Part shown: piece by piece, positions 5,205 to 64,000 of the stretch
Numbering within the stretch: the stretch's first letter is position 1
Layout: every line of letters begins with the position of its first letter
Assembly: GCF_024721605.1 (NCBI RefSeq)
Contig: NZ_CP102630.1
Span: forward strand, 434,001-498,000
Reading direction: 5' to 3'
DNA length: 64,000 bases
Source: Sphingomicrobium flavum
Lineage (GTDB): Bacteria; Pseudomonadota; Alphaproteobacteria; Sphingomonadales; Sphingomonadaceae
Translations under genes and position numbers: made by a program
Notes under the pieces: model-generated
Seen by the model: only the letters and a program-made list of their open reading frames with translations
What the model was told of the DNA's origin: nothing
Database searches by the model: none

Positions 5205-5783
5205 CTACAGGAGTTGCCCTAGAGTATCGTAGTCGATTCCGGTGATATCCTTCATAAGTTTTCGGAAGGGGCGGTGCCGTTGGTACAAAAGCTCGATGTC
5301 CAGACGTTGAGTGAGAAGTACTTGATCCTGTGTTTCTTTGTATCTTTGGCCAAGCGCGGCCTTAAGCGGAAATTTTGCGTCTCGGGGCATGCAAGGATCA
5401 GGGTGTGGCGGCAATTGACCAGCCGATAATACATCCAACGAAGCTAAAAAAAGACTTTCATATTCTCGTTCAATAAATACTAGTGAGACATCGATTTCTC
5501 GCCCATTCCTCCAAGCGTCAATCCGCGCCGAAGCGGTAGCTGATTCATTGACGCAGCATCCGTCGTCGAGATCTAACACTACAAATATCTTATCGGGCTC
5601 GCGGCTTAGCGCCAGTTCCAAATAGCGTTCGAGTTCGCCAGCGTTTGTTAGCTTTTTCCATTCTCCTGCCCGAATTGGCCGTAATGGAAATGCATCATGT
5701 CCAACGTGAGCTGCTGCTTTTGCAATCAAGCATGGTACAGCCGATTCATCACCATAGCCTTCAACGATCGAAACAAAACGCAT
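5205..5783 (-). CDS. DUF4276 (TOPRIM-like) protein, probable nuclease partner
   Basis: The 192-residue protein has the TOPRIM-like signature of DUF4276: a strand ending in Glu8 ('SIVEGYGDE') and a 'VVLDLDDG' motif (Asp71, Asp73) that would bind metal. A third acidic cluster, 'FIEREYESLF', is typical of the family. TOPRIM domains in OLD-like systems cut or nick nucleic acid. Its ATG overlaps the stop of the upstream AAA ATPase gene by one base (TAATG), so translation is coupled and the two likely act as a complex. Base composition is clearly more AT-rich than the neighbours, which suggests acquisition by transfer. Nuclease activity is an inference. Confidence 0.75.
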   Translation of the reverse strand: MRFVSIVEGYGDESAVPCLIAKAAAHVGHDAFPLRPIRAGEWKKLTNAGELERYLELALSREPDKIFVVLDLDDGCCVNESATASARIDAWRNGREIDVSLVFIEREYESLFLASLDVLSAGQLPPHPDPCMPRDAKFPLKAALGQRYKETQDQVLLTQRLDIELLYQRHRPFRKLMKDITGIDYDTLGQLL

Positions 5784-6964
5784 TATGCGAAAATACCCTC
5801 AGACGTGAGCAGTTCACCTGCTGTGAAAAGACCGTCTTTGACAATTTTTAGCTGTCGGGGAGAAATTTTCGCAAATGTGCTCACGCCTTCGCAATAGTGG
5901 GCAGAAATAATCGACTCCGGTTCGAACTCGTCCAAAAGTATCGGACTGTGGGTAGTGAAAAAGGTTTGCACTCGGCCAGGGTCGCTATCGAGATAATCTC
6001 GTGAGGCTTCCATAAGCACTGGTAGCAGTCCTGGATGGATCATTTGTTCTGGTTCTTCGAGCGTGATCCGTCGAGGGCGATTGGGCTGGTAAAAAGCTGC
6101 CAGCATACCGAGCATGCGGATGGTCCCGTCCGAAAGTTGCGACATATTCAGGTTATGTGCCGGTTTATCTTCCACGTCCTTCACTCGGAATACTGGCACG
6201 AAGTAGCCACCCGCTGATTCTATTCTAATTTCCTCGAGTATCGGGAGTACTTGCTGCATTGCTCTTGTTAGCGCTTCTTTGTTTTTTCTAGCAGCCGTCG
6301 ATCGCATTTGTTTAATAATTGAGGCTAAGTTACGCCCATCGTCCAACAATAACTCTGCACCGACAATTGGCTGTGGATCTCGAATTCGATTAGGATAAAT
6401 GGAGTAAGCGCCTGCTCGCGTAATTTCGCTTATCAACGAGTCAAAATAGTATTGCACAATTGCAAAATTGCTAAATTGGCCCAGTGCAAGTTCGGACTCA
6501 TGCACTTTGAAAGCTGGAACCTTGCCGAAGGGGTAAGGCGAGATATCGATCCCGATATCTCCGTTTTGATTTCGCACAAATCTTGCGGTGCTCATTCTCT
6601 CGCGATTTTCGTCGAAGGGGTCTTTTCCGCTCCAATGAGCTTCCTCTTCTAGAATTTGGAATTCGCCGGCGCTCGAAGAAATCGCGAAGCGATACCAGCC
6701 CTCTCCTTCCGGCGTGCTGAAAGAGAGCTTGATGGAAATGTTGAAGGGTTTGGTTTTGCTGTAGCGCCGAACGCTATTGACGCCGTGTCGAACCGTAAAC
6801 GCTTCGTCCAGACCCTGGTCGACGGCGTCGCGGACGAAATGGATTGAGTCGAGCAGGTTGCTCTTACCTACGCCATTTGGCCCCACTATGATATTCTCGC
6901 TTGAGAATTTTAGAGATGCCGAAGCGACACTCTTGTAATTTGCAATCTCAGCGGAAGTTAACAT
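5783..6964 (-). CDS. OLD-like AAA (AAA_21) ATPase
   Basis: The 393-residue protein is an ABC/SMC-like ATPase. It has Walker A GPNGVGKSN (residues 28–36), a signature-like 'LSDGTIRM', Walker B with 'ITLEEPEQMIHP' (about 300–311) and an H-loop 'TTHSPILLDEF' (about 337). The opening 'AEIANYKSVASASLKF' and 'EEPE..IHP' resemble RecF/OLD-type AAA_21 proteins. The ATG at 6964 is used because GGAGG precedes it; an upstream TTG at 6997 lacks a site. It overlaps the DUF4276 gene by one base. Such ATPase–TOPRIM pairs are often defence systems in which the ATPase senses invasion and controls the nuclease; here that role is inferred. Confidence 0.85.
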   Translation of the reverse strand: MLTSAEIANYKSVASASLKFSSENIIVGPNGVGKSNLLDSIHFVRDAVDQGLDEAFTVRHGVNSVRRYSKTKPFNISIKLSFSTPEGEGWYRFAISSSAGEFQILEEEAHWSGKDPFDENRERMSTARFVRNQNGDIGIDISPYPFGKVPAFKVHESELALGQFSNFAIVQYYFDSLISEITRAGAYSIYPNRIRDPQPIVGAELLLDDGRNLASIIKQMRSTAARKNKEALTRAMQQVLPILEEIRIESAGGYFVPVFRVKDVEDKPAHNLNMSQLSDGTIRMLGMLAAFYQPNRPRRITLEEPEQMIHPGLLPVLMEASRDYLDSDPGRVQTFFTTHSPILLDEFEPESIISAHYCEGVSTFAKISPRQLKIVKDGLFTAGELLTSEGIFA

Positions 6965-7108
6965 GAGCGCAGGCCTCCATTTTCTATGCTTGAACAAAGC
7001 AGACCGTATGGAAATTTGGAAGGTCGTTTGTAGACGGGCTAAGTCGAAATAGTAGGGAACTCAGTGAAACCATTGAACGGCGAACCTACTGCAACGCGTT
7101 AGAAACCC

Positions 7109-10105: not shown

Positions 10106-11827
10106 ATGCAGAATGTGCAGCGGATCAGCGAGGCCCCCGAAGCGGCGGCCCAGGACACAGTTCGTCATGACGACGGGCTGTTGCTGCACGCGCTTCCGCT
10201 GGCCGCGGCGATTGTGGGCCTGAAGGGCGGGAAATTGTGGGTTTATGCCCGCAATGCCGCCTTTCTCGAGACCATCATGCAATCGGGTGAGGGCGAGGCG
10301 GAAACCTTCAAGCGCCATGCTTATGGCGAAGTGGGCGAATTCCTGCGCGCTTTTCTGGCAGACATGGCGGGCGCGCCTGACCAGATGGACAGCCATGATG
10401 GTGAAGGGCTGGGCAAGCGCTATTTCACGACCAAGCTGGCACCGCTGACGCCGGCGAGCGATGGCAGCCCGCGCTGCCTGATGAGCCTGGTCGATCGCAC
10501 CGTCGAACGCCGCGCCGAGCGCAATCTGCGCGCCGAAATGCTGCGCGACAGCCTGACCGGCCTGTCCAACCGGCTGAGCTTTACCGAAACGATCGAGGCG
10601 CTGGACCAGGTGGACCGCGACGATCATGCGGTACTGGTAATCGATGTGCTGCGCTTTTCCCGCATCAACGAGAGCATCGGCAGCCTGGCGGGCGATGAAT
10701 TGCTGATCACCTTTGCCCGCCGCCTGATGAGCGCGATGCGCGGCGGCGACGTGCTGGCGCGCACCGGGGGCAATGAATTCGGGCTGCTGATCAAGGCGCA
10801 TGAGGGCGCGGACGATGCGCTCAAGGCCGCCGAGCGGATCAAGGCGCAACTGGCCGAGCCCTTCAAGCTAAGCGAGCTGGAAATCCGCGTCGATTGCGCG
10901 ATCGGCATCGCGCTTCTGGGCGACGAGGACGAGGCTGAGGAACTGTTCCGCAACGCGCAATTCGCGGTCAAACTGGCCAAGAAACGCGGACATCCGACGA
11001 TCTACGAGCCGGTCGAAGCCAAGGCGGCGCGGCGGCGGTTCTCGATCGAGACCGAACTGCGCCGCGCGCTTGACCGCGACGAGCTGGAACTGGCCTTTCA
11101 GCCGCTGATCGACCTGAAATCGGGCGAGGTGACGGGGTTCGAGGCACTGTCGCGCTGGACCCATGAAGATCGCGGGCCGATCAGCCCGGCTGAGTTCATC
11201 CCGGTGGCCGAGGAAAGCGGGCTGATCATCGAGCTCGGACGCTGGGCGCTCGACAAGGCAGCGCACACGCTGGCGCAATGGGATCGCGATGCAGGAGTGA
11301 AGCTGCCGCTTTATGTTGGCGTCAACATGTCGGCGATTCAGATGGCGCGCGACAATATCGCCGAGACCGTCGGCAGCGCGTTGAAATCAAGCGGACTGGG
11401 CGGCGAGCGGCTGACGCTGGAACTGACCGAAAGCGCGATTGTGCAGGATCCCGATCGCGCCACGCGGGTGTTCGATGCGCTGAAGGGGCTGGATACGACC
11501 GTGGCGATGGACGATTTTGGCACCGGCTATTCCAGCCTTGCCTATCTGCAGCGCCTGCCGATCGACGTGCTCAAGATCGACCAGAGCTTCGTGAAGGGCA
11601 TGCACCAGGATGCCGACAGCATCGCCATCGTGCGCGCCATCCTCAGCCTGGCGCAGGCGCTGGGCATGAAGACCACCGCCGAGGGTATCGAGGATCTGCA
11701 GACGGCGACGACCTTGTCGGCGCTGGGCTGTGCCAGCGGGCAGGGCTTTTATTTCGCCAAGCCGCTGAAAGCCGATGATGCGCTGGCCTATTGGAAACAG
11801 CGCCGAGGCAAGGGGTTGGCGGGCTAG
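10106..11827 (+). CDS. Degenerate GGDEF plus EAL domain c-di-GMP phosphodiesterase
   Basis: The 573-residue protein has an N-terminal sensory stretch (1–135, PAS-like), a GGDEF domain (about 140–300) and an EAL domain (about 310–565). The cyclase motif is changed to GGNEF (221–225), and the metal-binding region 'VIDVLRFSRINESIG' is atypical, so synthesis is doubtful. R212-G-G-D215 is the usual inhibitory-site position. The EAL domain keeps 'FEALSRW' (346–348), 'LELTES' and 'DDFGTGYSS' (469–477), as expected for an active phosphodiesterase that linearises c-di-GMP. It ends two bases before the convergent TIR operon. Confidence 0.92.
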   Translation: MQNVQRISEAPEAAAQDTVRHDDGLLLHALPLAAAIVGLKGGKLWVYARNAAFLETIMQSGEGEAETFKRHAYGEVGEFLRAFLADMAGAPDQMDSHDGEGLGKRYFTTKLAPLTPASDGSPRCLMSLVDRTVERRAERNLRAEMLRDSLTGLSNRLSFTETIEALDQVDRDDHAVLVIDVLRFSRINESIGSLAGDELLITFARRLMSAMRGGDVLARTGGNEFGLLIKAHEGADDALKAAERIKAQLAEPFKLSELEIRVDCAIGIALLGDEDEAEELFRNAQFAVKLAKKRGHPTIYEPVEAKAARRRFSIETELRRALDRDELELAFQPLIDLKSGEVTGFEALSRWTHEDRGPISPAEFIPVAEESGLIIELGRWALDKAAHTLAQWDRDAGVKLPLYVGVNMSAIQMARDNIAETVGSALKSSGLGGERLTLELTESAIVQDPDRATRVFDALKGLDTTVAMDDFGTGYSSLAYLQRLPIDVLKIDQSFVKGMHQDADSIAIVRAILSLAQALGMKTTAEGIEDLQTATTLSALGCASGQGFYFAKPLKADDALAYWKQRRGKGLAG

Positions 11828-11829
11828 GC

Positions 11830-13779
11830 TTACCAGTCCTTCATCGGCCAGTTGAGCGGCTTGCGGGGTGGCCAGCTATAGGGCGTCTTCTCCAGCATCG
11901 CCGCATAGTTGGGCGTGTTCTCAATGTCCCACGGGGCGCCGCAATTACAAAAATCAGCCGCGATTTGTAGCGCGGTGGCACCGCCCCGCCGGGCGTCGAC
12001 CTTGCGCGCGAGGCGGTTGGCGGCATCGCGATCACCTATCAGGGCATAGAAAGAAATCTGCTCGTAAATCGGGACGTTCTGGGTGGCGAGAAACTCGCGG
12101 ACCTTGTCAATTTCCCGACCTGCAAAGGCGCGGGCTGTCTGCAGGTGATAAAGACGGTCGCTGCGCCTCGCCAGGCGAAGCGCGCGCTCGGCATCGCCTT
12201 CCCAGATCGCCAGGACAGACTCGAGGTCGGAGGTCTTGTCGCCGTCACGCTTCAATCGCTGCAACGTCGCCCGGGCATCATCGAGGCGATCGACCCGACC
12301 CAATTCCCAGAAGCTGTTGTACATCCGAATGCTATCGGCGGTGTAGCATTCCTGCTGGGCCAGCAGCGTGTCCGCGATGAAGTCGACCTTGTCGAAAGCA
12401 GCGACAAGGAATGTATTCCAGTTGGGAATACTGCAGCCCTGTGCTTCGACATGTGCCTGGCGGGACAGGGACGCGACGTCGCTCCAGTCGTCCGAAAAGG
12501 CCGCGGCGTAAAGGTCAATCGCCAGCCGGTGCCGCCGGGTGGAAGCATTTCTACGAGCGATGGCAAGGCGTTCCAGCAACTGTTCGCGTGGATTTGCCGT
12601 GACCTCCTGGGGAAGCTCGGGATGCGTGATGTCCGCAAAACTATCTAGCAGGATATGCGAATAGAGATCGGAGGCCTGCGTCTGCGCTTCGACGAGCTTG
12701 GGCGCCTTTGCGAAGGCCTGGTCGTAGAGCTGCGTCGCCTCGTACAGCAAGCTGAGATCGGTGAGCTCGCCATGCGCCCTCGAATAGAGCTCGGTGGCCT
12801 TCGCACCAAGCGCGAACGCTTCGGGATCATTGATGCCGGCATCTTCCATGCGCGCAAGCAGTCGCTCGTCCAGCAGCACATCGAGCGAGGATGCGACCTT
12901 TTCGGCAATATCGGACTGGAACTGGAGTACATCGTCGCGGCTGCCGTCATAGCTGTAGGACCAGACGGTCTCGCCGGTTCCGGTGCGAATGAGCCGCGCG
13001 GTGACACGGACATCATCGCCGCCGCGGCGGAGCGAACCTTCAACGATATAATCGACATTGAGGCGCTTTGTGAGCGCGTCGACATCTTCGCCGCTGTCGC
13101 GCAGGCTGAAGACGGTCGTGCGCGGCAGCACCCGGAACTCGCCCAGCGCATCGAGGCGGTTCATGATCTCCTCGGTGATCCCGTCGGCGAAGAACTGGTC
13201 GTCTTCATCGGAAGACTGGGCGACGAAGGGCAGGACGGCGATGCTATCGCGATCTTCGACTTCGGCGGTCGCCGTGGTCGGTTCGCCTTGCTGGGTGACA
13301 AAATAGCCGGTGGCCCCGAGCAGGGCGACGGCGAGTGCGGCACCGACAAGGATGGGGGCATGCTTGCTTTTGCCTGAGTTGGCAGCGTGTTGATGCGCTT
13401 CGTGGTGGCCGCCGACCAGGGCGTCGAGCGCCTCCGTCAGAGCCGCCATGGCGTCATCGCCGTTCAAGTCAATGGCGTGGCGCTGGCGATAGCCCATGGG
13501 GGGCAATGTGTCGTCGATGCGTACGGGAACGAGCTTGTTGTGATCGCGGCCATAAGCGGCTTCATCGCGCACCCATTCTGATTTTACTGCATCCTTGGAC
13601 CAGACGACGAGGACGGCCTTGGCCTCAGCGATGGCGGCTTCGATATCTTCGCTGAACTGGTGCCCGCCGCGCAGATGCTTGTCCCACCAGAGCGTATAGC
13701 CCGCTTCCTCCAGCGCGGCCGCCAGCTTTTCGACACGCGGCTGGTCGGCGCGGGCGTAGGAGAGGAAGATGTCGGCCAT
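11830..13779 (-). CDS. TIR–TM–TolB-like–TPR protein, fourth gene of operon
   Basis: The 649-residue protein has a TIR domain (1–125), one membrane helix (141–160), a TolB-like domain (about 175–300) and TPR-like helices to the end. The TIR part shows 'DIFLSYARAD', WWD (31–33) and W-V-R-D-E with Glu73 at the position of the SARM1 NADase glutamate. The outer part has the canonical 'FFADGITEEI' and 'YIVEGSLRR' motifs of COG5616 proteins. TIR is predicted cytoplasmic and TolB–TPR periplasmic. Its ATG overlaps the upstream gene's stop (TGATG). The C-terminus holds an odd 'FCNCGAPWD' cysteine pair. NADase activity is inferred from the motif only. Confidence 0.88.
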   Translation of the reverse strand: MADIFLSYARADQPRVEKLAAALEEAGYTLWWDKHLRGGHQFSEDIEAAIAEAKAVLVVWSKDAVKSEWVRDEAAYGRDHNKLVPVRIDDTLPPMGYRQRHAIDLNGDDAMAALTEALDALVGGHHEAHQHAANSGKSKHAPILVGAALAVALLGATGYFVTQQGEPTTATAEVEDRDSIAVLPFVAQSSDEDDQFFADGITEEIMNRLDALGEFRVLPRTTVFSLRDSGEDVDALTKRLNVDYIVEGSLRRGGDDVRVTARLIRTGTGETVWSYSYDGSRDDVLQFQSDIAEKVASSLDVLLDERLLARMEDAGINDPEAFALGAKATELYSRAHGELTDLSLLYEATQLYDQAFAKAPKLVEAQTQASDLYSHILLDSFADITHPELPQEVTANPREQLLERLAIARRNASTRRHRLAIDLYAAAFSDDWSDVASLSRQAHVEAQGCSIPNWNTFLVAAFDKVDFIADTLLAQQECYTADSIRMYNSFWELGRVDRLDDARATLQRLKRDGDKTSDLESVLAIWEGDAERALRLARRSDRLYHLQTARAFAGREIDKVREFLATQNVPIYEQISFYALIGDRDAANRLARKVDARRGGATALQIAADFCNCGAPWDIENTPNYAAMLEKTPYSWPPRKPLNWPMKDW

Positions 13780-13784
13780 CAGTT
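13736..13784. repeat. 49-base direct repeat at TIR gene 5' end, copy A
   Basis: These 49 bases span the start of the fourth TIR gene and match 15709–15757 exactly, including the bases just upstream of the start codon. This indicates a recent duplication or conversion of the TIR 5' ends. Confidence 0.85.
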
Positions 13785-15752
13785 GGTTGCCTCATGACCG
13801 GAATCGCCGGGGCGGAGGGGGAGGCCGGCAAGATTGCCCTGCTCACGGCGGTAGGCCTCTACGCCCTTGAATCGGCTATTGTCGAAAATTTCGGCGTACC
13901 GCGGATCACGGCGGACGTTATCCGGCACCGAGAGATTGTCATCGAACAGGAAGTTGAGGCTCCAGTCCGCTGGAATATCCGCATTCGTCAAGGTTCTCAG
14001 TCGCTCGATCGCGCCGTCAACATCGCCATCGCGGCCCAGATGCGAAACGGCGCGATAGGGACTGCCGAGGGGAAGTGGCACAGGTTCGCCACCCAATCGC
14101 CTATAGCGGACGTAAGCAATCAACTGCTGCAATAGTTGCGGTTCGGTATCGTCCGACAAGCCTTGTTCAAACTGTTCAAGATGACGATTGGCGAGCATGT
14201 TGTCGGAGAAATCCATGGCGAGCATGGCATCGAACCAGGCTTGATCCTCGTACTGGCATATGCCTTCGCACGCCTGGCCGGCTTCGATGATATTGTTGAA
14301 CCGTTTGAGGCCGCGCAGGGCAAGGAGGCGATAGGGTGTCGTGAAAATTCCAGCGTCGATTGCGCGCGCCCGATCCAGATGGGTCAAAGCTTCGCGATAA
14401 TGGCCACCCACCAGGAGGGCGATACCCAAGATACGCTGGCTTTCTGCGGAACGAGGATACAGTTCGACTGCCCGTCGTGCCGTGGCAATCGCGGTTTGCG
14501 GGTCACCGTGGGCGCGTGTGGCGGTATAAGCCTTGGCAATCAATGCCCAACGATTGGTCGGATCACTAGCGAGCGCGCGCTCATAAGCTTCGCGCTGATG
14601 TGACATAAATTCGTCCACGCTGAGAGCGAGGTTGTTTGGCCCGGATTCGATCATCGACGCGGCCTTGGCGGCATGAGCATCGGCCCATTCCGGCGCGCGT
14701 TCTGCAACCGAGTCAAAATATTGATGCGCAGCAAGCCGGGCCTCGTCGCTATCGTTGGCCAGCATTTCCTCCATGCCGCTGCGATAGTCGGCCAAGATTT
14801 CGGGTGAGACGCCGCGGTAATCGGACAGCATGCCTTCGCCAACACCCAAACGGGCCTGGACTGCGGCCGCCAAGCGGGCAACGGCATCCTGGACGAGCGC
14901 CGTCTGCTGTCCGGCCGGGCGATCAAACTGACGTGTCCATACCGGCTGGCCGCTGGCCGCATCGACCAGGCGCAGGCTCAGCTTCAGCTCTCCGCCGTCC
15001 TGGCGCAGGTCGCCTTCCACGAAATGGGTAGCGTTTACCCGCTCGGCGATGTCGCCCGGAGCGCCACCATTATCAGCGGCTGCGAATGTCGTTCCGGGTG
15101 AGACCAGCGACATGTAGGCGCGGCCCCCAAGGGCGTCCGCGATGCGCGACGCAATATCGCGGCCAGATCCCGCCTGGGCACCGATCTCCTGGAAGGGCAG
15201 TACCGCGAGTGTCACGGATGCCGCTTCTCCTTCTTCACCCGCGAAAATTTCAGCGAGTGGTCCCGGGCGCATGATGGCGAGCGCACCGATGAGCAGGATC
15301 AGGAGGCCGGCAACCAGGGCATTGACGGGGACACGCTTGCGGGGCGTTGCTGGTTCAACCTCATGCGCGCCGCCAACAAGGGCATCGATTGCCTCGGTCA
15401 GGCTGTGGAGCGCAGTTTCATCGAACAGCCCGTGGGAAAAGTCAGTGGCCTGACGTTGGCGATAGCCAAATGGCGGCATGCTATCATCGAGCCGCAATGC
15501 AACGAGTTTGCCGTGGTCGCGCGCATAGCTTGCTTCTTCGCGGACCCATTCGCTTTCCGAGGCATGCTCCGACCAGGCGACAATAACCGCCTTTGCTTCC
15601 TTGAGCGCAGCTTCGATATCACGGGCAAATTCAGCGCCACTGCGGATATGCCTGTCCCACCAGACGCTATAGCCAGCTTCCTCGAGCGCGGCCGCCAGCT
15701 TCTCGATGCGCGGCTGGTCGGCGCGGGCGTAGGAGAGGAAGATGTCGGCCAT
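13779..15752 (-). CDS. TIR–TM–TolB-like–TPR protein, third gene of operon
   Basis: The 657-residue protein starts with a TIR domain whose first 28 residues are nearly the same as in the fourth gene. It keeps WWD (31–33) and W-V-R-E-E with Glu73, then a membrane helix (143–161). The TolB-like part is divergent: it has 'TLAVLPFQEIG' and 'THFVEGDLRQDGGELK' but lacks the F-A-D-G-x-T-E-E-I motif. TPR-like repeats ('YPRSAESQRILGIALLVGGH') and a 'RRDPRYAEIFD' C-terminal motif follow. Start and stop codons overlap both neighbours by one base (TGATG). It is a paralog specialised in its outer part. Confidence 0.88.
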   Translation of the reverse strand: MADIFLSYARADQPRIEKLAAALEEAGYSVWWDRHIRSGAEFARDIEAALKEAKAVIVAWSEHASESEWVREEASYARDHGKLVALRLDDSMPPFGYRQRQATDFSHGLFDETALHSLTEAIDALVGGAHEVEPATPRKRVPVNALVAGLLILLIGALAIMRPGPLAEIFAGEEGEAASVTLAVLPFQEIGAQAGSGRDIASRIADALGGRAYMSLVSPGTTFAAADNGGAPGDIAERVNATHFVEGDLRQDGGELKLSLRLVDAASGQPVWTRQFDRPAGQQTALVQDAVARLAAAVQARLGVGEGMLSDYRGVSPEILADYRSGMEEMLANDSDEARLAAHQYFDSVAERAPEWADAHAAKAASMIESGPNNLALSVDEFMSHQREAYERALASDPTNRWALIAKAYTATRAHGDPQTAIATARRAVELYPRSAESQRILGIALLVGGHYREALTHLDRARAIDAGIFTTPYRLLALRGLKRFNNIIEAGQACEGICQYEDQAWFDAMLAMDFSDNMLANRHLEQFEQGLSDDTEPQLLQQLIAYVRYRRLGGEPVPLPLGSPYRAVSHLGRDGDVDGAIERLRTLTNADIPADWSLNFLFDDNLSVPDNVRRDPRYAEIFDNSRFKGVEAYRREQGNLAGLPLRPGDSGHEATN

Positions 15753-15757
15753 CAGTT
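15709..15757. repeat. 49-base direct repeat at TIR gene 5' end, copy B
   Basis: Exact match to 13736–13784. It covers the first 44 coding bases of the third TIR gene plus the TGATG junction with the second. Confidence 0.85.
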
Positions 15758-17710
15758 CAACTTGCCTTCTGGCGAGAGGGGGATGCCGATGGTCGTGCCA
15801 TTGGCCTTGTGCCAGGCAAGGATCTTCGCACGTACTGGGTGGTCGAAGATGGCATGGTAGCGCGGATCGCGGCGCATATGGTCGGGAATATCGAGGCGAC
15901 CGGGGTAGAAGAGTTCGGCGACCTGCGAGGGATCGCCGGTGTTACTCGTCCACTCGATGGCTGCCCACGCCGCTTCTTCCTTGCCCAGCATCGCCTGCAA
16001 CTGGACACCGGCCCACCCGAAATAATTCTCGAATGGTTCGGGGCCGTCATAGGGGCGCTCGTAGATCAGCGCGCGAAGCGCCGCATCGGCTTGTTCGATG
16101 ACGAATTCCGGGAAGCCTGCCTGGCGGGAGAGCGCCAGCAAATCGTCCCTGTCTCGGTCGAACTGGTAGGGTTCGGCATGATCCGCCATGGCGTAGAACC
16201 ATGTCTGGACCTGCGCGCTGCAATCGGCGCAATTACGCATGGTGCGTGCCATTTCGTCATAATCGCCGGCCCAGCGTTTCAGGTTGGCGACGTAGCCACG
16301 GATGATGTTATTGTAGGGATCCCGCGCCTGTGCCTCTTCGCCCTGGCGCAGAGCATCCGTGCTGCGACCGGCAACGAAATAGACGGCGGAGAGCGCGTAA
16401 TGGCTTTCAGGCGCTTCGGGCGCATCGGCGACGAGCTTCTCGCCCGCCTCTATCGCTGCGTCGATGTCGCCATCGAAGCGGGGAATGGCCCGGACCCTCG
16501 CGGCGCGCGCAAGGATATTGTCGGGGTCGCCCTCCAGGGCGGAAGCGATGGCGCGTTCGATTTCCTGCCCGATGCCTTCTTCATTGAGTCCGAAGGATGC
16601 GCCGTCGCTGTGCACAAGCAAATATGCCTTGGCGGCGTGGGCGGCGGCGAAATCGGGTTCGAGCGAAATAGCGCGGTTGAGCTGACGGTATGCTTCCTGT
16701 CGGTCGGTTATCTCGTTGCGCTGGAAAACGCGATCGAGGCCGCGCAGGTAAGCATCGTAGGCGACAGGGTCGACGTCGCGCGTGTCGGCAAGGTCGCCGC
16801 GGCCAAGACCGAGCCGGGTTTGCAGCGCCGTGGCCAATAGACGCAGCATGCGGCCCTGAACGTTGGGCAATTGGTCGGGTGCGCCTTCGACCGTATCGGC
16901 CCAAATCTGTGCGCCGGTGGCGGCATCGATCAGCCTCACGCCAATCGTAAGCGTGTCGCCACTGACCCGCACATCGCCCTCTACGACATGGGTTGCCGAC
17001 AGCCGCGCGCCAATCTGGGTGGCGGTCAGCTGTTGCTCGGCCAGCGCGACGGTCGAATTGGTGGAAACGATGCCGAGCCCAGGAATGGCGACGAGGCCGT
17101 CGGAAAAGACACCGGGCAGGCTGGTACGAAGATAGGACAATCCCTCATCGCCGCCGATAGAGAAGGGCATGATGGCGAGCGTGGCCGACTGCGACTGTTG
17201 CTGCGTACTGCCGGGAATGCCGTTGACGGCAACATAGGTGCCGCCGGCCAGTGCCAGGGCGACGGCGCTGCCGGCGATAAGGAAGGGTTTTTTGGATTTG
17301 GACGAGGCCGGCTGAGGCACGGGTGCGACCGGTTCGGCATCAAGGGCCTCAGCGAGGTCGGCGGGCAGGGCGGCGCCGGTCTCGCCCCAGCCTTGCAAGT
17401 CGACGGTGTGGAACTGGCCGAAACCCAAGGGCGCGGGGGTGCCATCGATGGTGGCGCCGATGAGGTGGCCCGCGTCGGCGGCATGGCTGGCTTCATCGCG
17501 GACCCAGCGGCTTTCGACGCTGGCCGCAGACCAGAGCACGAGGACGTGGGTGGCAGCGTGCAATTCGCGCTCGATATCCTTGGAAAATTGCGACCCGCCC
17601 TTGATGTGGCGGTCCCACCAGACCGACTTGCCCGCGGCTTCGATGGCGGAGCCGAGGCGCTCGGCGATGGCGCGATCTTCGCGGGCGTAGGAGAGGAAGA
17701 TGTCGGCCAT
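15752..17710 (-). CDS. TIR–TM–TolB-like–TPR protein, second gene of operon
   Basis: The 652-residue protein has a TIR domain (1–120) with 'DIFLSYARED', WWD (31–33) and W-V-R-D-E (Glu73), a membrane helix at 142–161, and a TolB-like region starting 'ATLAIMPFSIGGDEGL'. As in the third gene, 'ATHVVEGDVRVSGD' is present and the FADGITEEI motif is absent, so the two form a subfamily. TPR-like helices ('EPDFAAAHAAKAYLLVHSDG') and the 'RRDPRYHAIFDHP' end motif follow. Both junctions are TGATG overlaps. Two cysteine pairs near residue 500 (NCADC) are unusual. Confidence 0.88.
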   Translation of the reverse strand: MADIFLSYAREDRAIAERLGSAIEAAGKSVWWDRHIKGGSQFSKDIERELHAATHVLVLWSAASVESRWVRDEASHAADAGHLIGATIDGTPAPLGFGQFHTVDLQGWGETGAALPADLAEALDAEPVAPVPQPASSKSKKPFLIAGSAVALALAGGTYVAVNGIPGSTQQQSQSATLAIMPFSIGGDEGLSYLRTSLPGVFSDGLVAIPGLGIVSTNSTVALAEQQLTATQIGARLSATHVVEGDVRVSGDTLTIGVRLIDAATGAQIWADTVEGAPDQLPNVQGRMLRLLATALQTRLGLGRGDLADTRDVDPVAYDAYLRGLDRVFQRNEITDRQEAYRQLNRAISLEPDFAAAHAAKAYLLVHSDGASFGLNEEGIGQEIERAIASALEGDPDNILARAARVRAIPRFDGDIDAAIEAGEKLVADAPEAPESHYALSAVYFVAGRSTDALRQGEEAQARDPYNNIIRGYVANLKRWAGDYDEMARTMRNCADCSAQVQTWFYAMADHAEPYQFDRDRDDLLALSRQAGFPEFVIEQADAALRALIYERPYDGPEPFENYFGWAGVQLQAMLGKEEAAWAAIEWTSNTGDPSQVAELFYPGRLDIPDHMRRDPRYHAIFDHPVRAKILAWHKANGTTIGIPLSPEGKLN

Positions 17711-19674
17711 CAGTCCCCCTGATAACGGCCGGGGCAGCGCAGTTGGTTGCGTTCTGGCTGGCTGTGCGGGATGCCTGCCTTTTCCAGCGCTGCGCGGGTC
17801 TTTGGATAAGGGGTCATGTTCCAGTCGGCAGCATATCCCCAGCCTGCCGCCATGAACGGCGGTTCGGACCGGTCGATTTCAGGTCTTTCCTCGGCATTGT
17901 CGGCGCTAGGACCAGTTAGAAGCCAGCGAACCCTGCGCTCAAATCTGGGATTGGCACTGGCAAGTTCGCGCATCTTTTCGAGATCGCCTTCGGCACATGC
18001 AATATCAATCGCGAGAGACTCGCGCGGAAAAGGAAGATCGTCTCTGCCTTCGGTCAATCGATAGGCGGAACGGGCCTCGTCCAAATGCCCGGCAAGCACC
18101 AGTAATTCGCCGGCGCGCAAGAGGGCGTGTCCGTCCTCGTTTTCCTCAATCGCCTGCCGTGCCACCGGCAGTCCGCGCTGCAGATCGCCGTAGCGCCGCA
18201 TATTGGTAAGAGCCAGTCCCGATGGCCCTTTCAGCTCGACCATTTTTTCCGCAGCGCGTTGGACCGTGTCCCACTCTCCGACGGCGCGGGCAGCGAGCGA
18301 CAGTTCCTGCCAATAATTTTCATTGTTGGGGTTGCGCTCCACTAGTCTTTGAGCGCGCGCCAATGCATCATCGAACCGCAGATGATAGCGGTCCAACAGC
18401 AGCAAAGCTGCTTCGCGCTGGTTCATGCGGACCGGATCGTCGGTGCCTTCGGAGCGATCGAGGATTTGCCGGACCGCTTCCTCGAACAATTTGCTGTGGG
18501 AGAGCGCGGCCTCCTTGTCGATCCAGCCGAAGGTGTGTTCGGACATGAAGTAATAGCGTGTGGAGGCCTCGAACAGGTAGGGATGAAGCCAATCGGGATC
18601 GAGCTGTTGCGCTTCCTTGATCAGCTCGGACCAGCGCTTGTGTTGCTCGGCGGCCGTTTCGCCTTCCGGATCGCCAGAGCGGAGAAACCGTTCGTACGCG
18701 GCGATCGAAGTCGTGCCCGTGCTGGTCATCTTGTCCAGGGCTTCCGGATCGACAGCTGTATTCAGGACGCGCGCAACCTCGGTGGCGATTTCTTCTTGCA
18801 CGGCGATCGCATCGTCGGTCGACCGGTCATAGCTTTGCGACCAGACACGCTCGCCATTGTCGGCTTTCACCAGCTCGACCGTGATCCGCATTTCTTCTCC
18901 GGAGCGGCGGATCGAGCCGCCGAGGACGTGGTCAACGCGCAGGCGATCGGCGATTTCGTTGGTGGCGAGATTGTCATCGCGCAGGGCAAAGGCATCGCCG
19001 GAAGCCGCGACATAGAGATCGGGCACGCGGGAAAGGGCGCCGGTGATTTCTTCGGCCAGGCCATCGGAGAACCATTGCTGGTCCTGATCGGGCGACAGGT
19101 CGCGGAAGGGCATGACGGCGAGGCTGGCGACGCGTTCCTGGGTGGCGGCGGCTTCATCGCCCGGCGCGTCGCTGCGGCCCATCATCCACCAGGTGCCGGC
19201 GGCGATGAGCGCCAGAGCCAGCGTCAGGATGATGGCGATCGGCGCTATCGATTTTGGCGAAGGCGCGGTCGCGGCGGGGGGCTGGGCCTCCTTGCCGACC
19301 TGCTGGGCGATGGCGGCGAGCAGCGGCTGGATGGCCTCGGCGCGCTGGGGCCAGCCGGTCAGATCGATAGTGTGGAGCTGGCGAAAGCCCATCGGGGGCT
19401 TGCTGCCATCGAGGGTGAGGGGAACCAGTTTGCCTACCTCGCGCGCATCGGCGGCCTCGTCGCGGACCCAATGGCTCTTGGCGCTCTTTTCCGACCAGGC
19501 GACGACGGCGACCTTGGCGTCGGTCAGCTCGGCCTCGATGTCGTCGGAAAAAGCATGGCCGCCGGTGAGATGTCGATCCCACCAGACGCTATAGCCGGCC
19601 TCCTCCAGCGCAGCCGCCAGCCGTTCGACCAGGGGCTGGTCCTCGCGCGCGTAGGAAAGAAAAATATCGGCCAA
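17710..19674 (-). CDS. TIR–TM–TolB-like–TPR protein, first gene of operon
   Basis: The 654-residue protein begins at a TTG (MADIFLSYARED), preceded by GGGGGG at good spacing; no ATG or GTG in frame nearby gives the conserved N-terminus. It has a TIR domain with WWD (31–33) and W-V-R-D-E (Glu73), a membrane helix (144–164), a TolB-like domain with canonical 'WFSDGLAEEIT', 'LGGSIRRSGEEMRI' and 'GERVWSQSYDR', and TPR-like helices. A proline-rich linker (130–142) precedes the membrane helix. It heads the operon and is divergent from the two PilZ genes. The start codon suggests modest translation. Confidence 0.88.
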   Translation of the reverse strand: MADIFLSYAREDQPLVERLAAALEEAGYSVWWDRHLTGGHAFSDDIEAELTDAKVAVVAWSEKSAKSHWVRDEAADAREVGKLVPLTLDGSKPPMGFRQLHTIDLTGWPQRAEAIQPLLAAIAQQVGKEAQPPAATAPSPKSIAPIAIILTLALALIAAGTWWMMGRSDAPGDEAAATQERVASLAVMPFRDLSPDQDQQWFSDGLAEEITGALSRVPDLYVAASGDAFALRDDNLATNEIADRLRVDHVLGGSIRRSGEEMRITVELVKADNGERVWSQSYDRSTDDAIAVQEEIATEVARVLNTAVDPEALDKMTSTGTTSIAAYERFLRSGDPEGETAAEQHKRWSELIKEAQQLDPDWLHPYLFEASTRYYFMSEHTFGWIDKEAALSHSKLFEEAVRQILDRSEGTDDPVRMNQREAALLLLDRYHLRFDDALARAQRLVERNPNNENYWQELSLAARAVGEWDTVQRAAEKMVELKGPSGLALTNMRRYGDLQRGLPVARQAIEENEDGHALLRAGELLVLAGHLDEARSAYRLTEGRDDLPFPRESLAIDIACAEGDLEKMRELASANPRFERRVRWLLTGPSADNAEERPEIDRSEPPFMAAGWGYAADWNMTPYPKTRAALEKAGIPHSQPERNQLRCPGRYQGD

Positions 19675-20380: not shown

Positions 20381-20451
20381 TTTTTTCAAAACATTTTGAA
20401 CCCTTCGCGCCGACCCCGCCTCCCTGTTAGGGAGAATGATGGGGGGTGCCG

Positions 20452-20997
20452 ATGGCCCTGCGTGCCGACCGATTGCTGGACAGCTTTCTCGTGCTCAAGG
20501 CGCGAGAGGGTGATGCCGACGCTTTTGGCCGGCTGGTTGAGCGCTGGCAGCCCAAGCTTCTCGCCCATGCCTGGCGCCTGACCGGCGACAGGGAGAGTGC
20601 GAAGGATGCCGTGCAAAGCGCCTGGGCCGATATGGCCAAGGGGTTGGGGCGGCTGAAGGAACCGATGGCCTTCGGGCTGTGGGCCTATCGCATCACCAGC
20701 CGGGCGGCAGCGCGGCAGGCGCGGGGCGAGCAGTCTTCGCTGCCGCTCGACGCGGTCGAGGAAGCGGCGCTTGGTACTGCCGACAATGGCGGCGAGCAGG
20801 CGGTTGAGGCGCAGCGGCTGAGAAGTGCCATTGCGGCTTTGCCAGCGGGGCAGCGTGCGGCGGTGGCACTCCATTATCTCGAGGAAATGAGCGTGGCGGA
20901 AGTCGCGGTGGCGCTGGCGGTGCCGGTCGGCACGGTGAAGACGCGGCTGATGCATGCCCGGGACAAGTTGAGAGCCAGTTTTGAAGGAGACGAATGA
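20452..20997 (+). CDS. ECF-type RNA polymerase sigma factor
   Basis: The 181-residue protein has sigma region 2 ('AREGDADAFGRLVERW', 'DAVQSAWADMAKGL') and region 4 ('ALPAGQRAAVALHYLEEMSV', 'GTVKTRLMHARDKLR'). It is an ECF factor that directs RNA polymerase to a limited regulon. The ATG at 20452 follows GGGGGG; a GTG at 20446 is an alternative. Its stop overlaps the start of a small membrane protein gene by an ATGA junction, so that protein is probably its regulator. No target promoter was identified. Confidence 0.92.
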   Translation: MALRADRLLDSFLVLKAREGDADAFGRLVERWQPKLLAHAWRLTGDRESAKDAVQSAWADMAKGLGRLKEPMAFGLWAYRITSRAAARQARGEQSSLPLDAVEEAALGTADNGGEQAVEAQRLRSAIAALPAGQRAAVALHYLEEMSVAEVAVALAVPVGTVKTRLMHARDKLRASFEGDE

Positions 20998-21359
20998 TGC
21001 GTGATTTCGATGCGCTGATGAAGGAAACGCTGGACGCGGAAGAGCGCGAACTCTTGGCCCAGATGGGTGAGGAGCCGGGCTGGTTTTCGCAAATCTTTGG
21101 CCTGTTTACGGGCAAGATCGGCTGGACAAATATTGTTCTCGCCATCACCCAGGCGGTGATGTTCATCGCCGGCATTTGGGCAGCCGTGCATTTCTTCAAT
21201 GCGACCGAGCCGTTGGAGGCATTGCGCTGGGGCCTGCCGGCCGCGGTGCTGATGATCCTGGCGGCCGTAATCAAGCTGAGCATGCTGCCGGTCGTTTATG
21301 TCAACCGCGTGCTGCGCGAGGTAAAATTGCTACAGCTGCAGCTGGCGCAGAAGCACTAA
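20994..21359 (+). CDS. Small membrane protein, possible sigma-factor partner (DUF6768-like)
   Basis: The 121-residue protein has a charged N-terminal part ('DFDALMKETLDAEERELL') and two membrane helices (about 46–68 and 77–100). The N-terminus resembles the cytoplasmic part of proteins often coded beside ECF sigma factors and annotated, I believe, as DUF6768. It overlaps the sigma gene (ATGA; a second ATG at 20997). An anti-sigma-like role is inferred; it lacks the zinc-binding H-x3-C-x2-C motif of classic ZAS anti-sigma factors. Confidence 0.8.
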   Translation: MMRDFDALMKETLDAEERELLAQMGEEPGWFSQIFGLFTGKIGWTNIVLAITQAVMFIAGIWAAVHFFNATEPLEALRWGLPAAVLMILAAVIKLSMLPVVYVNRVLREVKLLQLQLAQKH

Positions 21360-22531
21360 CCCAGATGGCGCGCGACGAGCGCGTCGAATTCCGGGCCATC
21401 GGGGAAATTGGACGCGATCCAGTCTTCCTCGATGGCCTTCAACGTGCGGGCGACGTCGGGGCCCTGGGTGATGCCCTTGGCGATGAGGTCGCCGCCCTTG
21501 ATGGGCAGGGTGGGGATGTCCCAACTTTCGAGTTCGGCCACGGCGGCTTTGCGATCTCCATCCCATGCGGGGGTGAGTGCGATCCGGTCCATCGCCGCCT
21601 CCTTGCCATCGCGGTAGGCCATGGTGCTGGCGGGCCCTTCGGCGGGCACGAGAATCTTGGCGAGGTGGACGCGCTGGGCCTTGGAGAATTTGAGGCGCGC
21701 GGCAATATCCCTGCCGACCTCAACATCGCTGGGGATGAGGGCGGCAAGGCGGCGCAGGGCGCTGGGTTCGAGGATGGTTTGATGCTCGAAGGCGAGGAGC
21801 GCAGCCAGCGCTTGGGCATCGGCGATCTCAGGCAAGACGGGCTTGAAGATGCCATGCGCGATCATCGTCTCGATCGTCGAGACAGGTGAGGGAAGCGCCA
21901 GCAATTTCAGTAGCTCATCGGCAATGCGTTCGCGCGACAGGGCCATGAGGTCGTTGGCGCGCTGGGTGCAGGCGGCGAGGCCGGCGGCGTCGGGCGCATC
22001 ATGGCCGAAGCGGGCGTGGAAGCGGAAGAAGCGCAAGATGCGCAGGTGATCCTCGGCGATGCGCTGCAAGGGATCGCCGATGAAGCGGACCGTGCGGGTT
22101 TCAAGGTCTGCAAGGCCGCCGAAATAATCAAAAATCTCGCCGCTCACAGGGTCGGCATAAAGGGCGTTGATGGTGAAGTCGCGGCGCGCGGCGTCTTCCT
22201 GCCAGTCGTCGGTGAAGGCGACGGTGGCGCGGCGGCCATCGGTCGAGACGTCGCTGCGCAGGGTGGTCACCTCGACCACGGTGCCCGAGGTGACGGCAGT
22301 GATGGTGCCATGATCGATCCCGGTGGGCACCGCCTTGATACTGGCGGCCTCAAGGCGGCGGACGACCTCCTGCGGGGCATGGGGCGTGGCGACGTCGATA
22401 TCGGCGACCTTGAGGCCGAGCAGGCTGTCCCGCACCGCGCCGCCGACGAAGCGGACCTGGCCTTCGCCAAGCGCTTCGAGCAGTTTTTCCATGCCGCGGC
22501 GGGCGCGGAAGGGCGCGACGTCAAAGCGCAT
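21356..22531 (-). CDS. cca: CCA tRNA nucleotidyltransferase
   Basis: The 391-residue enzyme adds or repairs the CCA end of tRNAs. Visible class II motifs are 'VRFVGGAVRDSLLG', 'DIDVAT', 'DAARRDFTINAL' and 'RIAEDHLRILRF'. The 5' end overlaps the Nudix gene upstream by 11 bases, and its stop overlaps the stop of the convergent membrane protein gene. The gene order DUF1285–Nudix–cca on one strand is usual in sphingomonads. There is no HD domain. Confidence 0.93.
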   Translation of the reverse strand: MRFDVAPFRARRGMEKLLEALGEGQVRFVGGAVRDSLLGLKVADIDVATPHAPQEVVRRLEAASIKAVPTGIDHGTITAVTSGTVVEVTTLRSDVSTDGRRATVAFTDDWQEDAARRDFTINALYADPVSGEIFDYFGGLADLETRTVRFIGDPLQRIAEDHLRILRFFRFHARFGHDAPDAAGLAACTQRANDLMALSRERIADELLKLLALPSPVSTIETMIAHGIFKPVLPEIADAQALAALLAFEHQTILEPSALRRLAALIPSDVEVGRDIAARLKFSKAQRVHLAKILVPAEGPASTMAYRDGKEAAMDRIALTPAWDGDRKAAVAELESWDIPTLPIKGGDLIAKGITQGPDVARTLKAIEEDWIASNFPDGPEFDALVARHLG

Positions 22532-63233: not shown

Positions 63234-64000
63234 TTGGCCGATATCTTCATCTCTTATTCCAGTGAGGAGCGCGCGACCGCTGAGCAATTGGCTGCCGCGT
63301 TGGAGGCGAGGGGCTATTCGGTCTGGTGGGATCGTAATCTTGAAGGAGGGGCAGACTTTTCCGACGATATCGAGCGCGAGATGGCCGAGGCGAGCGCCAT
63401 CCTGGTTGCCTGGTCAGGCAATGCCGCCAAAAGCCACTGGGTGCGCGATGAAGCCAGCTATGGCCGCGATGCGGGCAAATTGGTGCCGATCACGCTCGAT
63501 GGCGCGCAGCCGCCCATCGGCTTTCGCCAGGTGCAGACGATCGATTTTACCGGCTGGAATGGCGGGGACGATGAGCGGCTGACGCGGCTGGCGAGCGCGA
63601 TCGACCGGTGCTGCGGGCGCGAGCCCGGTGTGGACGCCCCAGTGCCTGCTGCCACGCCGCCGACAGGTGCTGCTTCCAGGACGGCCATGATCGTCGCGAT
63701 CGTCGGGGCAATCTTACTGCTGCTGGCGGCTGGCTGGTGGTTTACGCGCGGCGGGGACGAAAGTGGTGCAGCAGCGGTGGTAGCGGAAACCTCTGTGGCG
63801 GTGCTGCCCTTCAGTTCGCTGTCGAGCGATGAAGATGACCGCTATTTCGCCGAAGGGGTCACGCAGGAAATCCTCAATCGGCTGGCGGCCCTCGATGAAT
63901 TGCGGGTGACCTCGCGCTCGGCCAGCTTCCAGTTCGGCGGCAGCGAATTGCCGTTGAACGAAATCGCCGAGCAGCTTCACGTGTCGCACATCGTCGAAGG
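63234..64000 (+). CDS. TIR–TM–TolB-like protein, partial (runs off window)
   Basis: This is the fifth TIR paralog. It starts at a TTG like the first gene of the operon, after GGGGGAAG. At least 255 residues are seen: a TIR domain with WWD (31–33) and W-V-R-D-E (Glu73), a membrane helix (151–170), and the canonical 'YFAEGVTQEIL' TolB start. It continues beyond the window. Two adjacent cysteines lie at residues 126–127. It is 43 kb away from the operon. Confidence 0.85.
   Translation, partial: MADIFISYSSEERATAEQLAAALEARGYSVWWDRNLEGGADFSDDIEREMAEASAILVAWSGNAAKSHWVRDEASYGRDAGKLVPITLDGAQPPIGFRQVQTIDFTGWNGGDDERLTRLASAIDRCCGREPGVDAPVPAATPPTGAASRTAMIVAIVGAILLLLAAGWWFTRGGDESGAAAVVAETSVAVLPFSSLSSDEDDRYFAEGVTQEILNRLAALDELRVTSRSASFQFGGSELPLNEIAEQLHVSHIVE

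Follow-up and report, generated by a model that had tools for sequence, protein, structure and literature searches.

Four tandem TIR–TolB-like–TPR genes of Sphingomicrobium flavum and a large, patchy family of putative TIR receptors

We analysed a stretch of 64,000 nucleotides from Sphingomicrobium flavum (contig NZ_CP102630.1, positions 434,001 to 498,000; hereafter the window), in which positions 11830-19674 are filled by a tandem array of four paralogous genes, P1 to P4, each encoding an N-terminal TIR domain, a predicted membrane helix, a TolB-like domain and a TPR part. On balance, these proteins are probably one-component receptors of the CadC type with a TIR NADase (an NAD-cleaving enzyme) as their output. 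The evidence comprises the gene structure, the modelled fold, an invariant catalytic-type residue, topology signals, a sensor chassis shared with other proteins, recurrent arrays and a conflict between trees. Both TIR NADases and CadC-type sensors are known kinds of protein; in the literature searched, no large receptor family with arrays was found that unites the two. More tentative, and to our minds somewhat doubtful, is the idea of a hetero-oligomeric platform, that is, batteries in the manner of Toll-like receptors in which CadC-type sensors would sit on homogenised TIR NADases, with shuffled modules and soluble counterparts.

The four genes lie on the minus strand in the order P4, P3, P2, P1, read from 19674 to 11830 (Table 1). 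The initial annotation had described four paralogs of about 650 residues joined by three TGATG overlaps, and this description holds: the open reading frames encode 649-657 residues, and at all three junctions the sequence ACTGATGGCC unites a TGA stop with an ATG start, with one base in common. Pfam TIR_2 matches each protein above its cut-off (E 3e-21 to 4e-28; 77-99 bits), and the motifs claimed earlier, WWD at residues 31-33 and Glu73 within [ERH]WVR[DE]E, are indeed present in all of them. Among P1-P4 the TIR parts are 46-68% identical and the remainders 18-28%. Beyond the TIR domain, Pfam cut-offs are passed by FlgO and TolB_N in P1 only and by two TPR models in P2 only; for the rest, the TolB/TPR call comes from alignment and from a TolB profile whose source sequences, all members of the family, include P1-P4. 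The arrangement is not a chance one, because it recurs in related genomes. A tRNA-Ala (GGC) reported by ARAGORN across the P2/P3 junction (15737-15829, plus strand) is probably false, having no Rfam match; Rfam at its gathering threshold gave no match anywhere between positions 9000 and 23000.

Trp31, Asp33 and Glu73 are invariant in all 148 members of the family set (compiled as described below), and position 69 is Trp in 125 of them. Glu73 of P1 aligns with a Glu of AbTIR that we take to be the catalytic residue of that enzyme. In TIR-STING the conserved catalytic Glu is E84 (PMC9402430). A profile of 16 family TIRs matches the chains of AbTIR, SARM1, tir-1, SPARTA and Cat1, and it also matches the TIRs of Toll-like receptors and plant NLRs. 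The second AlphaFold2 model of P1, built with 71 sequences, has a mean predicted local distance difference test score (pLDDT) of 83.7, with 92-98 in the TIR blocks. The modelled TIR superposes on that of SPARTA (8ifl; Z 17.0, 2.0 Å, 124 residues), of SARM1 (9mw2; Z 16.3, 1.9 Å, 116 residues), a comparison that the initial annotation had proposed, and of AbTIR (7uxu; Z 14.9, 2.5 Å, 122 residues). As for models of known defence proteins, Pfam ThsB_TIR lies slightly above its cut-off of 21.2 in P1-P3 (24.8, 26.4 and 21.6) and below it in P4, the Thoeris ThcB4 model gives 26-32 bits against a cut-off of 220, and the best PADLOC stretches all fall inside residues 1-133, short of a whole-protein match.

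The single membrane helix that had been placed after the TIR domain is found by hydropathy in all of P1-P4. In the P1 models a helix spans residues 148-163 or 143-162, a stretch where pLDDT is below 50, and the call therefore depends on hydropathy. Across the family, 80 of 148 members have a hydrophobic helix linking the TIR and TolB parts and 68 lack one, by a simple hydropathy cut under which two transmembrane rows within a soluble clade may be miscalled. Lysines and arginines are more numerous before the helix than after it in 67 of the 80 transmembrane members (the reverse in 4, equal in 9). The TolB-TPR part contains 0.48 cysteines per 100 residues in transmembrane members versus 1.04 in soluble ones, and the number of cysteines is even in 76% versus 50%. 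Pairs of the CxxC or CxxxC type were found in 14 of 80 transmembrane members, against a mean of 1.8 and a maximum of 6 in shuffled sequences, and in 5 of 68 soluble members, against 6.2 expected from shuffles; the contrast between the two groups on such pairs alone has p 0.085. The only two cysteines of P3 form a CxxC pair (494, 497) and those of P2 a CxxxC pair (495, 499), while P1 has four cysteines and P4 two. These data fit a predicted placement of the TolB-TPR part in the periplasm of transmembrane members and in the cytoplasm of the others. Thus, of the "periplasmic TolB-like/TPR part" of the initial annotation, the sensor-like character is retained, but the part is not inherently periplasmic, given the 68 members without a helix.

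Residues 175-302 of the P1 model resemble the N-domain of TolB (2hqs; Z 16.7, 2.3 Å, 121 residues). What follows is modelled as a helical, TPR-like solenoid with no propeller, high Z values being common for solenoids; likewise, the C-terminal beta-propeller of TolB was not encountered in P1, TIGR02800 matching at positions 16-148 only with 29 bits against 343. With the first P1 model, the top Foldseek match was the periplasmic domain of CadC (3ly9, E 2e-5), which came at rank 13 with the second model (E 3e-4), in alignments of ~340-415 columns whose root-mean-square deviation (13-20 Å) is high across the whole length. The NCBIfam CadC model gives E 0.0071 and 15 bits against a cut-off of 400, and CadC was not among the 50 structure-comparison rows listed for the second model. 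A similar part is found below other N-termini. Four further proteins of the same genome have a TolB part (L217, L218, L219 and L220), with N-termini that look winged-helix or BTAD-like by inspection, Pfam Trans_reg_C being confirmed for L219 only. On rhizobial plasmids, 15 of 530 records, those listed, included 7 annotated adenylate or guanylate cyclases and 3 winged-helix proteins. Five rows without a TIR (L217, L218, L219, L084 and L096) are spread over five positions of the sensor tree, and well-supported branches force at least four of these; other candidates were left out, and several of the included rows are long branches. Scattered in this way, these proteins suggest that the TolB-TPR chassis seems to exchange its output domain. 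In the models, the sensor resembles that of CadC and appears common to TIR, winged-helix and cyclase proteins, the cyclases by annotation. L217, with its BTAD-like regulator N-terminus (by inspection) and no obvious membrane helix, displays a further output type on this chassis.

The genome itself (Sphingomicrobium clade, 2.34 Mb, one contig) encodes 12 TIR_2 domains. Eight proteins have the TIR-TolB-TPR architecture, namely P1-P4, a fifth paralogue that begins in the window and runs past its end, L016, L018 and the divergent L017, which the TolB profile A3 missed. The remaining TIRs belong to two TIR-transmembrane-TPR proteins without TolB, one TIR-FHA protein and one protein of another kind. 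The two former (L015, 670 residues; L019, 676 residues) carry another TIR type, and the genus has many open reading frames about as long with weaker TIR_2 matches. The TIR-FHA protein (L013:7707-8567; genome C1:170706-171566) has 286 residues, its FHA domain being called by Pfam and checked in this protein only; many genus genomes contain open reading frames near this length with a similar TIR and no TolB call. TIR_2 was found in 31 of 37 genus genomes, the present one included, with 0 to 18 domains per genome. From named contigs and retrieved stretches came 220 distinct TIR open reading frames, 167 of which matched the TolB profile made from the eight proteins above; removing duplicates and proteins with a sensor shorter than 300 residues left the final set of 148. 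Among the 80 of 383 relatives that were kept, Sphingomicrobium nitratireducens provides the nearest named full-length relative (44% over P1), and by record titles the members come from Alpha- and Gammaproteobacteria, Ignavibacteriae, Kapabacteria, Bacteroidetes and Gemmatimonadetes, many of them as metagenome-assembled genomes (MAGs). Order-wide, 78 of 297 genomes match the family profile at E<=1e-50, with at most 4 candidates scored per genome and with many matches spanning the sensor part only. One TIR-TolB gene (L083) comes from a MAG that bears the label Klebsiella pneumoniae, in which its contig is short; this bin label may be wrong because the other listed relatives come from quite different bacteria.

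Arrays in which two to four TIR genes follow one another head to tail were found at 24 distinct loci (25 rows, L088 and L167 being the same), short loci being left out; at L080, L087 and L102 the second gene ends at the contig end and no TolB was seen. Arrays of four occur in the window, in the Marinicaulis MAG L063, whose fourth gene runs beyond the sequence retrieved, and in the gammaproteobacterial MAG L072, and Ignavibacteriae contribute the pairs L113 and L120; Alphaproteobacteria, Gammaproteobacteria and Ignavibacteriae thus all have arrays. The initial annotation named no described operon with four TIR–TolB chains; the operon is in fact one case of a large and patchy family, with two further arrays of four. 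Counting L088/L167 once and measuring from the TIR start, the 34 junctions include 20 overlaps and 4 at which the genes abut. Within arrays the TIR domains are more alike than the sensors: 35 array pairs average 68.9% identity in the TIR and 46.4% in the sensor, compared with 48.1% and 36.6% for 260 non-array pairs of the same genome. Given the sensor identity, array TIRs have a residual of +17.4 points (p 2e-11; the p-values are descriptive because the pairs are not independent). The most extreme pair, in Marinicaulis L063, combines 94% in the TIR with 36% in the sensor. Two broader patterns were considered and rejected. A hypervariation of the TPR part peculiar to arrays is not seen, since 39 orthologue pairs behave likewise (TolB 81%, TPR 60%). 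Genome-wide concerted evolution of TIRs is not seen either, the nearest TIR being in another genome for 78 of 82 genus proteins and the nearest sensor also for 78 of 82, in a comparison where the entries of the genome under study are partial.

The tree of the TIR domains disagrees with that of the sensors. The former makes P1 the sister of L130_-8604 from the syntenic G034 array (support 100/99), with 86% identity in the TIR and 28% in the sensor. In the sensor tree P1 groups with L050_5994 of S. nitratireducens (98), and the sensor data reject the pairing of P1 with L130_-8604 (approximately unbiased test, p 2.4e-5), a pair that was picked from identities and the TIR tree prior to viewing the sensor tree. 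Both this conflict and the TIR likeness in arrays fit an exchange of TIR domains under different sensors, where they may also co-assemble. The soluble tandem pairs L152 and L140 have TIRs from two different well-supported clades.

We propose that P1-P4 would be single-pass receptors of the inner membrane, with the N-terminal TIR in the cytoplasm and the TolB-N-like and TPR parts in the periplasm, where a cue would alter the packing of these parts. According to PMC12847820 and PMC9402430, characterised TIR NADases require head-to-tail or filament assembly. A membrane sensor that clusters or rearranges would be a natural switch. Repacking might thus bring the TIRs into a head-to-tail assembly with a composite NAD+ site, which would cleave NAD+ to a signal of the ADP-ribose or cyclic ADP-ribose type or deplete it. 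In arrays, several different sensors would be produced together on exchangeable TIRs. Being co-translated and having similar TIRs, the chains could share assemblies, or they could act in parallel on one output.

Several results weigh against this proposal. The soluble relatives indicate that the sensor part works without a membrane too. The modelled TIR also fits the TIR of Hydra TRR-2 (Z 18.1) and that of MyD88 (Z 16.8), which is an adaptor; because these superpose as well, the fold by itself is no proof of activity, and the invariant Glu appears the stronger point, although a structural role could explain its invariance. One might then suppose that the TIRs are non-catalytic adaptors assembling with further TIR proteins in the same cell, such as the TIR-FHA and the two TIR-transmembrane-TPR proteins without TolB, which would carry the output. 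The presence of these proteins and the TIR likeness in arrays, which points to assembly, suit this explanation, but Glu73, needless for an adaptor, is kept throughout records of Alpha- and Gammaproteobacteria and Bacteroidota/Ignavibacteriae, and we consider it quite improbable. Other results concern the arrays. The soluble arrays L140 and L152 are reversed, with 41% identity in the TIR and 60-68% in the sensor. In matched bands of TolB identity, array and cross-genome orthologue TIRs stand at 69/65, 75/66 and 76/73, that is, an excess of 4, 9 and 3 points with 6, 12 and 7 array pairs in the bands. TIR likeness in arrays is thus clear in comparison with other paralogues and modest in comparison with orthologues. 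A genus-wide same-codon test on 3003 pairs gave none past Bonferroni for TIR over sensor (best p 1.4e-4, with 1.7e-5 needed; suggestive only) and one that passed the opposite way. The likeness might accordingly come from recent duplication, a difference in rate or purifying selection, with no bearing on co-assembly, and orthologues, too, vary most in the TPR. We regard this as somewhat unlikely, since paralogues of the same genome with equal sensor identity have far less similar TIRs and the two trees disagree. Moreover, in 13 array pairs with TolB below 50% the TIR lies 24.9 points above TolB, as against an average of 6.5 below in the 39 orthologue pairs, a contrast unmatched for divergence as few orthologues are that far apart; and in L063 identical residues use the same codons at 60 of 92 TIR positions versus 54 of 147 in the sensor (p 1.5e-5), in one of eight chosen pairs, three others having p <0.05. 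Of the initial annotation, the TIR fold, the catalytic-type Glu73, the single membrane helix and the sensor-like TolB/TPR part are supported, and its membrane-spanning sensor/NADase survives as the most likely reading; for a shared TIR platform there is some support, which the small excess over orthologues weakens.

Two further explanations are narrower versions of the receptor reading, and the likelihoods we attach to them and to the others do not sum to one. In one of them, the proteins would serve environmental one-component signalling as CadC does (pH, a ligand or redox), the TIR making an NAD-derived messenger alongside the cyclases of this chassis, without killing; we hold this to be quite possible, though short of probable. 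It agrees with the CadC-like fold, with the paired cysteines of several transmembrane sensors, with the winged-helix regulators and annotated cyclases on the same chassis, and with the mostly housekeeping-type Pfam families of the flanks. The strong variation in copy number would be atypical of a physiological sensor, and a weak test turned up no candidate for the receptor of an NAD-derived messenger: STALD and ThsA_Macro were seen in 0 of 8 genomes and no control genome matched either, and no ThsA-like protein was among the window genes scanned (8 + 5). This result counts weakly against the receptor reading as a whole. In the other, which we think unlikely, the proteins would be abortive receptors against phages or bacteriocins, the TPR/TolB part recognising a component of the intruder at the envelope stage and the TIR depleting NAD+ so that growth stops. 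The closeness of the modelled TIR to SPARTA, SARM1 and AbTIR, the patchy copy number within one genus, and the arrays, diverging sensors and tree conflict, which resemble immune-receptor evolution, speak for it, as does a HEC-01AB-type candidate module at 5205-6997. Yet PADLOC matched (E<=1e-20) only 3 of 110 sampled flanking open reading frames of genus loci, and no Pfam family recurred in more than 3 of the 110, a sample that has no random-gene control and probably includes some shadow frames. The sampled flanks are not defence islands, the neighbourhood lends no support to the earlier link with defence, and with no recurrent partner the TIR-TolB genes look self-contained. Nor did phage records match P1; on plasmids no place covered 80% of it, and a near-DNA search there gave no match. 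Besides, clear orthologues exist between species, for example between G034 and G001, with sensor identities of 87-99%. Chassis and neighbourhood speak for signalling; the variation in copy number and the shuffling of modules speak for conflict.

The predicted receptors combine traits of several known systems. Like CadC, a ToxR-like protein, they have a single membrane helix, a cytoplasmic N-terminal output and a periplasmic TolB-N-like and helical sensor (here predicted). They differ in their TIR output, their longer TPR part and their tandem arrays, CadC having a DNA-binding winged helix; no Trans_reg_C match was found in P1-P4, and TIR_2 stands in its place in all four. The bacterial TIR enzymes known so far are mainly soluble effectors or components of systems that defend against phages. 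With the NADases SARM1, AbTIR and SPARTA, P1-P4 share the TIR fold (Z 15-17), a Glu at the catalytic position and the W and D motifs; they differ in that the TIR is joined to a transmembrane sensor and its activity is predicted. The winged-helix-TolB-TPR and cyclase-TolB-TPR proteins have the same sensor chassis with another output domain, both forms occurring on plasmids as annotated. Toll-like receptors and plant TIR-NLRs also couple a variable repeat-type sensor to a cytoplasmic TIR, through a single membrane helix in the former. Their sensors consist of leucine-rich repeats, however, whereas P1-P4 have TPR/TolB parts, the opposite domain order and a Glu-bearing TIR, and the likeness is meant as one of architecture. 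The Group 6 TIR-TPR proteins of actinobacteria have an N-terminal TIR, often C-terminal TPRs and more than 700 residues (PMC7075850); they show the motifs of another TIR group, and the section of that paper on them mentions neither a TolB-like domain nor a membrane helix. Among the papers that PubMed Central listed for this architecture or family, and in passages of PMC7159879 and PMC7075850, none on a TIR-TolB-TPR receptor was found, nor among those listed for the cyclase chassis, subscription papers lying outside the search. If our proposal is true, a TIR enzyme on the CadC/cyclase chassis would constitute a bacterial transmembrane TIR receptor of a widespread family, NAD-derived signalling would be tied to envelope sensing, and bacteria would offer a model for the sharing of one TIR platform by different receptors and for the diversification of a sensor repertoire. 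Arrays like that of Marinicaulis make hetero-assembly directly testable.

The locus is flanked by a GGDEF-EAL gene, which adjoins a gene for a topoisomerase IV/gyrase subunit A (parC-like), and by a PolyA_pol-head gene, which adjoins a NUDIX gene. Both flanks were found in 56 genus genomes, partly drafts, and in 41 of these they lie side by side in convergent orientation, at most 12 kb apart; 10 genomes have a gap of no more than 800 bases. The interval between them contains four family genes in the present genome, three in G034 (L130), two in S. nitratireducens (L077) and one in G018 (L179), and the one TIR gene of the G035 interval has no TolB call. A sigma factor related to the ECF (extracytoplasmic function) sigma gene lies in the interval of G006, G079 and G082, and a less similar one in that of G069 and G077. 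The CCA and EAL genes served as anchors of synteny; the sigma factor was dropped, having close relatives in few genomes.

Table 1. Features of the array, its interval and the fifth paralogue (window positions)
Feature	Position	Strand	Remarks
P4, gene 1 of the operon, TIR-transmembrane-TolB-like-TPR	17710..19674	-	open reading frame, TTG start at 19674, 654 residues
P3, gene 2, TIR-transmembrane-TolB-like-TPR	15752..17710	-	open reading frame, 652 residues
P2, gene 3, TIR-transmembrane-TolB-like-TPR	13779..15752	-	open reading frame, 657 residues
P1, gene 4, TIR-transmembrane-TolB-like-TPR	11830..13779	-	open reading frame, 649 residues; AlphaFold2 model
Glu73 codon of P1	13561..13563	-	residue aligned with the AbTIR Glu
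Glu73 codon of P2	15534-15536	-	
Glu73 codon of P3	17492-17494	-	
Glu73 codon of P4	19456-19458	-	
Predicted membrane helix of P1, residues 148-163	13291..13338	-	hydropathy; low model confidence
Fifth paralogue, TIR-transmembrane-TolB-like-TPR	63234..64000, past the window end	+	genome C1:497234-499228; 664 residues
GGDEF-EAL protein	10106..11827	+	left flank of the array interval
ECF sigma factor	20446-20997	+	inside the array interval
DUF6768 protein	20994-21359	+	inside the array interval
PolyA_pol-head protein	21356..22531	-	right flank; probably a CCA-adding-type enzyme

The HEC-01AB-type module mentioned above consists of two genes on the minus strand and is a candidate AAA ATPase defence module, with matches to HEC-01A (E 4.5e-75) and HEC-01B (E 1.5e-33); it sits beyond the parC-like gene, away from the array.

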